From positions 1 through 64,000 of the forward strand of contig JAKSYS010000042.1 in assembly GCA_022925895.1 (NCBI GenBank): 64,000 bases of DNA, read 5' to 3'. Origin of the DNA: Fragilaria crotonensis (Eukaryota > Bacillariophyta > Fragilariophyceae > Fragilariales > Fragilariaceae). Made by a program: the position numbers and the translations under genes. The notes beneath the pieces are model-generated. The model did no database searches and was not told where the DNA came from. It was given only the letters and a program-made list of their open reading frames with translations. The stretch's first letter is position 1. The number at the start of each line of letters is the position of its first letter. Of this stretch, positions 14,090 to 16,829 are shown piece after piece.

Positions 14090-16456
14090 ATGGCTCCCAA
14101 CAACGCTCTCAAGAAGGCGACAGCTGCGACGACGACGGTCCTTCAATCAGGCACTGTCGAAGCCCGCGGGATGGGCACCAAAGCCACGTCACGAGATGTG
14201 ATTAGTCAAGAAATCGTTGCCTTCCTTGAGGGCGAGGCGAAGCTTAGTATAACCGCTGAGAGTCGAGCTTTCTTCACGGTCTGGACCTTTATTACACGCC
14301 TTCCGGGTCCTACATGGGTCGATCATCATCCGGGATATCTGATGCGAGGTATGGCTTATTTTCCAATGGCTGGATCACTCGTTGGACTCTTTGTCGGGGT
14401 ATTCTTTGACTTTACCAACATTACTCTTGGTTTACCTTCTATCATTGCGGGAGCCTTGTCCACTGCAGCCTCCTTGTGGATTACAGGGTGCTTTCACGAA
14501 GATGGTCTGGCAGACGCCAGCGACGGCATCGGCGGTGGTTGGAGCCGGTCGCAAATACTGCGCATCATGTCGGACACGAGGTTAGGAACGTACGGATGTG
14601 CCGTCCTCATGCTGTACTTGGTCACAAAGCTGGAATTATTAGCTGCTTTGGGATCATCGGAGTGGTCTTTCCAGAACTGTCGTGGGGCAGCTCCTGCATT
14701 GTTGCTGTCTCACTCATTCGCTAGACTGACATCTCCATACTTGATACGGACGAACGACTATACTGACGAAGGCGGACCAAAGTTCGCTTTTTATGGCTTC
14801 ATGCTACAGGCCAAGTATTTGGTTACATGGTGGCGAGTCGCGTTTGCCGCGTTAACTTGCATTTCTTTGGGATTTGCGCTGGTTGGTCTCTCACAGACAC
14901 TCACTCTGTTGTTGGGGATGGGATTCGTGGCACATATTGCTGGTCGCTATGCCAACTACTTGTTAGGAGGCGTGATGGGAGACTACTTAGGAGCAACTAT
15001 TTGCGTGTCGGAAATCGTGGTTTTGACTTTGCTGCTCATCACGGATTCGGTTGCGAGCCTTATGACCAGTGCACTGGAAGACGTGCTCACGATGGAAAGA
15101 GCAGAGCAACTTTCCATTCTGTGGGAGAATCCGAAACTTGCCGTCCTTGCTCGTTTTGTTGCTGTGATTTTCGCAACGTCACTATGGAGTCGTCTTGTAG
15201 GACCACCCGATGTCTTTGTGCGCGAAACAGTCGTAGCCAACATTGAGAAGAACGATGGGGAGATCCGCATTGGATTGAACGTAGCATCAGTTGACGAGGC
15301 ACCGACAACAGAAACCAGTCGCAGCAAGGCAGAAACTATTTGTCGAAACGAGGGCTCGACATTTCATGATCGCTACGAAGCGGTGTCGTCTTATCTTGAC
15401 TCCTTGGCGAAGCCTTTGGGATCCTTGGGAACTCTAGAAGAGTGGGCCGCTCGACTTGGTGCTTTGCAAAAGACGACGCAGCCTCGAATCGAGACCGTTG
15501 CGTGCTTGATTTTTGCTGCTGACCACGGAATTGCCAAGAAATCAGACGAGGGAGGTGAAGGTTGTTCTGCGTACCCACAAGTTGTGACACAGGGCGTGTT
15601 GAGGGGATTGGATATGGGGATAGCCGGCGCCTCTGTTTTGGCTGCCTCGAACGGCGTCAAGTTGAGAGTGGTGGATGCGGGAGTCGTAGGAGAGCCAGTG
15701 TTTAACGGTGGGGTCGTAGTACAATCCTCTTTCAAACTGAAAGGCGGCACTCGCAATTCCTGCACAGAATCTGCGATGACTGTGGAAGAAGTAGAACAGC
15801 TCATTGTGGCTGGGCGGCTGTCCATGAAGGAATTCGTTAACGAAACAAGCGCTGATTTGCTTTGCCTTGGAGAAGTCGGCATTGGCAACACGACGACGTC
15901 GTCAATACTGCTAGCCGCCATTACTCGAGAGGATCCCGAGAAGCTTGTAGACGGCGGCGCTTCGTTGGCTAGAGAAGTGGATCAAGGTTTGGTTTGCAAG
16001 AAGATTGGCATTGTTAAGAAAGCGCTATCAAACCATTCCAGTTCAACAGGCCCAGCTGAGGGGATGGCGTCGATGCTCGCGAAGTTCGGAGGAGCCGAGA
16101 TTGCAACTCTCGTGGGGGCCATCCTTCAAGCATCGGAGCAAAATATGCCGGTAGTTGTGGACGGCTTCATTGTCACCGTCGCCGCACTTGTGGCTTCATT
16201 GATATCACCTAGCTCAATCCGTGTGATGTTCTTTGCTACACAATCTGCTGAAAAAGGGCAGGCAGTTGCTCTCCAAAAAATTCGAGATATTTCCATGCAA
16301 AGTGGCATCCCTGTGCCCGCTGTCCCCGCCCTTTCGATGCAATTACGTATGGGTGAGGCAACCGCGGCACTGATTGCCGTTCCCCTCCTTCGGTGTGCCT
16401 GCAAAGTTCTTTGTGAAATGGCGACGCTCCAACAGATCATTGGCGACGAATCCTGA
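14090..16456 (+). CDS. CobS-CobT fusion: cobalamin synthase plus DMB phosphoribosyltransferase
   Basis: 788 residues in one exon. Residues about 55-325 are CobS (adenosylcobinamide-GDP ribazoletransferase): a multi-helix membrane domain with the acidic metal-binding motif FHEDGLADASDGIGGG (135-150), MSDTRLGTYG (160-169) and GGVMGDYLGAT near 293-303. After a linker of about 80 residues, residues 423-788 are CobT (nicotinate-nucleotide:dimethylbenzimidazole phosphoribosyltransferase): LDSLAKPLGSLGTLE, AADHGIA, SAYPQVVT, CLGEVGIGNTTTSS, FGGAEIATLVGA and PALSMQLRMGEATAA, whose Glu (about 756) matches the catalytic Glu of bacterial CobT. CobT makes alpha-ribazole phosphate and CobS attaches ribazole to the corrin ring, so the protein carries two neighbouring steps of the lower-ligand pathway. 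All key residues look intact. No bacterial-looking compositional island is seen. Confidence 0.95.
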   Translation: MAPNNALKKATAATTTVLQSGTVEARGMGTKATSRDVISQEIVAFLEGEAKLSITAESRAFFTVWTFITRLPGPTWVDHHPGYLMRGMAYFPMAGSLVGLFVGVFFDFTNITLGLPSIIAGALSTAASLWITGCFHEDGLADASDGIGGGWSRSQILRIMSDTRLGTYGCAVLMLYLVTKLELLAALGSSEWSFQNCRGAAPALLLSHSFARLTSPYLIRTNDYTDEGGPKFAFYGFMLQAKYLVTWWRVAFAALTCISLGFALVGLSQTLTLLLGMGFVAHIAGRYANYLLGGVMGDYLGATICVSEIVVLTLLLITDSVASLMTSALEDVLTMERAEQLSILWENPKLAVLARFVAVIFATSLWSRLVGPPDVFVRETVVANIEKNDGEIRIGLNVASVDEAPTTETSRSKAETICRNEGSTFHDRYEAVSSYLDSLAKPLGSLGTLEEWAARLGALQKTTQPRIETVACLIFAADHGIAKKSDEGGEGCSAYPQVVTQGVLRGLDMGIAGASVLAASNGVKLRVVDAGVVGEPVFNGGVVVQSSFKLKGGTRNSCTESAMTVEEVEQLIVAGRLSMKEFVNETSADLLCLGEVGIGNTTTSSILLAAITREDPEKLVDGGASLAREVDQGLVCKKIGIVKKALSNHSSSTGPAEGMASMLAKFGGAEIATLVGAILQASEQNMPVVVDGFIVTVAALVASLISPSSIRVMFFATQSAEKGQAVALQKIRDISMQSGIPVPAVPALSMQLRMGEATAALIAVPLLRCACKVLCEMATLQQIIGDES

Positions 16457-16581: not shown

Positions 16582-16736
16582 ATAGCACTTACTCTAAATC
16601 ACAAAGCTGGAGTGTTCTAGAAGTTTATCTGAGATAGCACTTACTCTAAATCATAAGCTGGAGTGTGCTAGAAGTTTATCTGAGATAGCACTTACTCTAT
16701 ATCACGAAGCTGGAGTGTTCTAGAAGTTTACCTGAG
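16582..16736. repeat. Three tandem copies of a ~52-bp repeat
   Basis: Units start at 16582, 16634 and 16685 and each runs from ATAGCACTTACTCTA to GAAGTTTAYCTGAG, with few differences. They sit in the 373-bp convergent spacer between the CobS-CobT fusion and LTV1, so they probably fall in 3' UTRs. Nothing else is seen in the spacer. Confidence 0.95.
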
Positions 16737-16829
16737 AAGAATTGTAGCACCTTGGCTACTTCCATGCTGACCACGCGTAATGCGCCGTTCACAGCGTCGC
16801 CTACTCAACCTATATGATATTCATTAATA

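Follow-up and report, generated by a model that had tools for sequence, protein, structure and literature searches.

In bacteria, alpha-ribazole phosphate is the product of CobT, and CobS attaches it to AdoCbi-GDP (PMC8092220). In algae, COBT, COBS and COBC correlate with the remodelling of pseudocobalamin with 5,6-dimethylbenzimidazole (DMB), as described for Chlamydomonas reinhardtii and Pavlova lutheri by Helliwell et al. 2016, who also listed 46 further MMETSP candidate remodellers (PMC4850488). According to PMC7733943, the algal remodelling genes have not been identified; the same source describes that Vibrio cholerae CobS takes part in remodelling, for which in vitro data are said to be lacking (PMC8092220). 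Moreover, PMC8092220 proposed a membrane complex of CobS with CobT, and placed the motifs HxDxxxDxxD and GxxGDxxG in CobS cytoplasmic loops 2 and 6. Fusions of CobT to a lower-ligand-supply enzyme are known from Propionibacterium freudenreichii (BluB/CobT2; PMC4657239) and, as bluB/cobT, from Actinobacteria (PMC8123684).

Here, we describe an algal locus at which CobT is fused to CobS. The two enzymes are those of C. reinhardtii and P. lutheri, but in the available text of PMC4850488 the algal proteins are spoken of as separate; 'fused' appears in that paper a single time, for a reporter gene, and 'fusion' not at all. The proposed CobS/CobT complex consists of separate proteins, with CobT next to membrane-bound CobS, whereas CobT is here covalently tied to CobS. 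V. cholerae CobS is likewise implicated in remodelling, but no fusion is named in the available text of PMC7733943 and PMC8092220, and microalgal cobS of Chrysochromulina tobin and Emiliania huxleyi is named alone, with a CobT fusion unmentioned, in that of PMC4580454. BluB/CobT2 differs in that it is bacterial and that the soluble partner is the DMB maker BluB. In the part of the openly searchable full-text literature covered, a scope outside which most subscription journals lie, a CobS-CobT fusion is undescribed. The new parts are the fusion itself and an added hydrophobic segment in its linker, while algal COBT, COBS and remodelling are already published.

Results

CobS and CobT domains share a single open reading frame

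The window, i.e. the whole stretch of DNA analysed, covers the initial 64 kb of a contig of 172 kb, which belongs to an assembly of 62.1 Mb and 881 contigs. At 14090-16456 on the forward strand, it contains a single ATG-to-stop frame of 788 aa with both a CobS and a CobT domain. The surrounding stop-to-stop frame spans 824 codons with zero internal stops and, therefore, a separate CobS product would have no stop codon at which to end. The gene has the following features.

14090..16456, + strand: whole CobS-CobT fusion gene; one open frame, 788 aa
14090..14254, + strand: N-terminal extension (aa 1-55) that may serve in targeting; codon score 0.282, more K/R than D/E at its start
14282..15025, + strand: CobS domain, aa 65-312; PF02654, 131.9 bits against a cut-off of 23.2
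14495..14524, + strand: CobS motif HxDxxxDxxD, aa 136-145, by alignment; motif described in PMC8092220
14969..14992, + strand: CobS motif GxxGDxxG, aa 294-301, by alignment; motif described in PMC8092220
15044..15349, + strand: linker, aa 319-420; coding-like codon use in frame
15143..15199, + strand: linker residues 352-370, an added hydrophobic segment of 19 residues with a mean hydropathy of 1.66
15377..16435, + strand: CobT (DBI_PRT) domain, aa 430-782; PF02277, 286 bits against a cut-off of 22.6
15872..15874, + strand: conserved CobT glutamate E595, by alignments
16355..16357, + strand: conserved CobT glutamate E756, by alignments

The first 37 aa contain five K/R and two D/E residues, and the N-terminal extension is possibly a targeting sequence. 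The CobS part has several hydrophobic segments, as judged from the hydropathy profile alone. Just 3' of the gene, at 16582-16737 of the window, a 52-bp unit is present in three head-to-tail copies that match at 92%.

The frames around the gene are those of a eukaryote. A scan of ten long frames in the window identified, among others, alpha-COP, an ABC transporter, a glutathione-transferase-like protein, LTV1, a DEAD helicase and NFACT; for three of the ten, there was no match at all or nothing beyond weak coiled-coil matches. An Rfam scan of the window gave zero matches at the gathering score. Genome-wide, there were 61 matches to PF00504 (chlorophyll-binding/light-harvesting); one of these frames, compared with solved chains, best matched LHCI-11, with several fucoxanthin chlorophyll a/c proteins lower down. 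An earlier note, made from the letters of the window, had proposed a single protein carrying CobS and CobT in a eukaryotic, algal setting with both domains complete, in frame and with intact motifs. The 788-aa frame with both Pfam domains, the ordinary eukaryotic neighbours and the PF00504 matches bear out the first two of these points, and the near-full-length profiles and conserved residues described below agree with the third.

Both halves belong to the CobS and CobT families

The CobS match covers residues 2-206 of the 207 of the Pfam profile and the DBI_PRT match residues 10-326 of 329, i.e. both are full length, and Pfam detected no domain other than these two in the fusion protein at E<=1. 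The motif residues of CobS (H136, D138, D142 and D145; G294, G297, D298 and G301) are invariant relative to 53 bacterial CobS rows, with the exception of D138, which falls in the >=90% class. In CobT, E595 (in GEVGIGN) and E756 (in RMGEATA) are invariant in an alignment with six bacterial CobT proteins; in a larger alignment with 45 bacterial rows, E756 remained invariant and E595 was in the >=90% class. We take these two residues to be the catalytic glutamates of CobT. Sequence comparison with solved structures placed CobT enzymes nearest (1j33 and 1wx1 at the top, E 4.7e-41) and gave no match to a CobS chain at E<=0.001.

Tested against the NCBIfam equivalog TIGR03160, the CobT domain scored 273.3 bits, which is below the cut-off of 319.3; two bacterial CobT controls (L006 and L011) scored 442.6 and 444.9 bits and both passed. 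Similarly, the CobS domain alone scored 93.3 bits against TIGR00317 (cut-off 110), and a bacterial CobS control (L006; Methylibium) passed with 117.9 bits. Because of these scores below cut-off, we refer to the halves as CobS and CobT domains. In total, we conclude from Pfam and the motifs that both halves belong to the CobS and CobT families, with putative enzyme activity.

An added hydrophobic segment lies within a linker of coding-like codon use

The linker had previously been estimated at about 80 residues; in fact it is longer, with 117 residues between the Pfam domain ends and ~100 from the last hydrophobic CobS segment to CobT. Codon use was scored with a measure for which five further genes of the window served as the training set, and stop codons did not enter the score. 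The forward frame of the linker was the best of the six at 0.175 bits per codon, a value that none of the 405 control windows taken off frame reached (maximum 0.171), and 24 of 81 true coding windows scored at or below this value. In other parts of the gene, the N-terminal extension scored 0.282 (best of six) and CobT 0.182; the weakest signal was that of the CobS part at 0.079, which was still the best of six frames.

At the peaks of segment 352-370, only the algal row was present in a 54-row alignment, and at least ten other rows had scattered letters up to position 370. If CobS loops 2 and 6 are cytosolic, the last CobS helix would end on the opposite side of the membrane and, therefore, one further helix would bring CobT back to the side of the catalytic loops of CobS. 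Hydropathy suggests that aa 352-370 may form this one extra helix.

Among the loci scanned, only the alga's own frames combine CobS with CobT

A scan of 92 loci revealed both domains together in no frames but those of the alga itself (L001 and L002). The bacterial set, from genome_contigs, consisted of the best 80 of at least 584 confirmed relatives. In these 80, the best CobT segment was 32-39% identical to the algal domain, and the fusion was found at none of the 80 CobT loci, with CobS in the flank of 55. In 299 Pseudomonadota genomes, CobS matches were present in 201; among the matches listed, eight CobS frames were longer than 430 aa, and none of these contained CobT. For seven of the eight, CobT was in another frame, and for the eighth it was not seen in the stretch fetched. 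In ten individually checked genomes, CobS frames were 259-386 aa.

None of 127 plasmid records had a place covering 80% of the fusion query, which is a weak test because the N-terminus and the linker are not expected to align. In phages, ten records had partial matches; the Acinetobacter phage records CAKLQH020000056.1 and CAKLQF020000009.1 have an annotated cobT that is 33.3% identical to the algal CobT. In the viral_contigs set, no relative was confirmed.

In the frame scan, five CobT frames exceeded 480 aa. By Pfam, two were CobT alone and three were Nitroreductase-CobT frames from Flavobacterium, demonstrating that the frame scan is able to reveal other fusions. In the latter (L032:3299-4987, L061:3242-4969 and L068:3290-4969), Nitroreductase is N-terminal, and they resemble the BluB/CobT fusions of Actinobacteria. 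The algal protein falls outside the BluB/CobT class by Pfam, i.e. the partner of CobT is CobS, and there is no nitroreductase-type domain.

In quick trees, the rows of which are biased because they were chosen as the 80 loci most like the CobT query plus plasmid loci, the algal CobT (90 rows) had a branch of 2.14 and lay in a weakly supported fork (61) with Pseudomonadota, Bacillota and others. The algal CobS (61 rows) had a branch of 1.86; the fork at which it lay was open (88) and shared with 15 Bacteroidota, five Pseudomonadota and two ungrouped rows. A recent transfer from one bacterial donor is not supported, the two halves being long branches placed in different company.

Other B12 genes in the genome

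Genome-wide searches for B12 genes were made on six-frame translations, without introns. CobS and CobT each had one match, both being the fusion frame; accordingly, the genome contains both COBT and COBS, the combination that correlates with remodelling in algae in the available text of PMC4850488. B12-dependent methionine synthase (METH) was found, as was a PduO-type adenosyltransferase (184.6 bits).

CobU gave zero matches in the six-frame search of the genome, in which six of 14 control genomes were positive, and CbiZ also gave zero, with five of 14 control genomes positive. Thus, nothing in the genome is recognised as a source of the usual CobS substrate or as an enzyme that removes the lower ligand. 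For BluB, nothing in the genome scored above the cut-off of 150, and there was one partial match of 31.2 bits. For CobC, none of 18 genome matches reached the cut-off of 162.9 (best 102.4 bits), and PMC4850488 warns that such matches may be other phosphatases. The earlier note had listed a CobU-type kinase and a CobC phosphatase as partners missing from the window. For CobU, this absence extends to the whole genome as searched in six frames; for CobC, it holds only in that none exceeds the cut-off, as CobC-like phosphatases are present. CbiZ and BluB are lacking in addition to the partners named there, by no match and by none over cut-off, respectively.

METE, the B12-independent methionine synthase, gave two matches at one place (L005:789-2730, reverse strand; G000 contig C76, about 239296-241237) that abut in different frames, with no space for an intron. 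In alignment with solved METE, one frame runs as far as a conserved site and the other continues from that same site. METE looks like a disrupted gene, with an assembly error as a possibility, and given the broken frame, B12 may be needed. An adjoining frame presumably corresponds to a retrotransposon RNase H, which it resembles.

METH is a single frame of 2862 aa (L114:198-8786; G000 contig C218, 638397-646985, forward strand), in which the homocysteine and folate half is present in three in-frame copies with a period of 751 aa, followed by a single B12-binding and activation half. The words GLNC and GGCC are present in each copy. Over 2127 nt, dN/dS was 0.036, 0.095 and 0.126, and dS 0.117, 0.224 and 0.174, for copies 1-2, 1-3 and 2-3, respectively. 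Given these values and a nearly identical middle, the copies look selected and partly homogenised. The repeat recalls the doubled METH of Phaeodactylum tricornutum (PMC4523565), but here there are three copies. Together with the light-harvesting matches, this repeat makes it likely that the alga is a diatom.

Discussion

We favour, with a probability of about 0.62, that the fusion is a bifunctional membrane enzyme that activates DMB and attaches it to salvaged corrinoids in B12 remodelling. The C-terminal CobT domain would convert nicotinate mononucleotide and DMB to alpha-ribazole phosphate, and the N-terminal CobS domain, in the membrane, would join alpha-ribazole phosphate to an activated corrinoid, giving cobalamin phosphate. 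Scavenged corrinoids, e.g. pseudocobalamin, would be rebuilt to cobalamin for the B12-dependent methionine synthase, with DMB coming from outside. Because no recognised DMB-making enzyme was found, salvage is the most likely role of the fusion. We infer both enzyme activities, channelling between CobT and CobS, the topology and the remodelling. The earlier note had named the gene as a candidate for the remodelling of pseudocobalamin, and a link between this ability in algae and COBT/COBS is published (PMC4850488).

With CobU and CbiZ unmatched, two routes are conceivable: the substrate of CobS would come from enzymes that were not recognised, or the lower nucleotide would be exchanged by CobS. 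In the latter case, CobS would swap the lower nucleotide of pseudocobalamin or another complete cobamide, with alpha-ribazole phosphate supplied by the CobT half of the same chain, and the fusion would, on its own, be the missing remodelling enzyme of algae. Such direct exchange, which we consider doubtful, would explain the missing CbiZ and CobU and would account for algal remodelling in the absence of the CbiZ route of bacteria. The lack of a recognised lower-ligand remover is also consistent with salvage without remodelling, i.e. the fusion would only complete unfinished corrinoids, e.g. cobinamide, or use alpha-ribazole, and the adenine of pseudocobalamin would not be replaced. CobT and CobS do serve cobinamide salvage in bacteria (PMC7733943); however, this salvage needs CobU, which is also unmatched, and remodelling of pseudocobalamin was observed in algae that have COBT and COBS (PMC4850488), making this alternative unlikely, though not negligible.

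The same missing partners (CobU and CbiZ unmatched, no CobC over the cut-off), together with the sub-cut-off equivalog scores of both domains and the long branches in the quick trees (CobT 2.14, CobS 1.86), could indicate that one half, or each of them, has been repurposed or is fading. We regard a lost or changed activity as improbable, since the motifs and conserved glutamates are intact and the domains are full length and stop-free. Finally, all evidence comes from one assembly, and an artefact could have arisen by bacterial contamination or by an assembly join of two genes. We reject contamination on the basis of the eukaryotic neighbours on the 172-kb contig and the distance from bacteria (32-39% identity of CobT in the best 80 of at least 584 relatives). 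As the fusion was in none of these 80 bacterial loci and codon use is coding-like across the linker, we consider an artefact of either kind very improbable.

In total, a natural fusion speaks for a joint action of CobT and CobS, in agreement with the membrane complex proposed in PMC8092220. It also provides a single gene for knock-out or expression and bears on which algae can use cyanobacterial pseudocobalamin. For the alga itself, the fusion probably allows scavenged B12-like molecules to be rebuilt for its own use.
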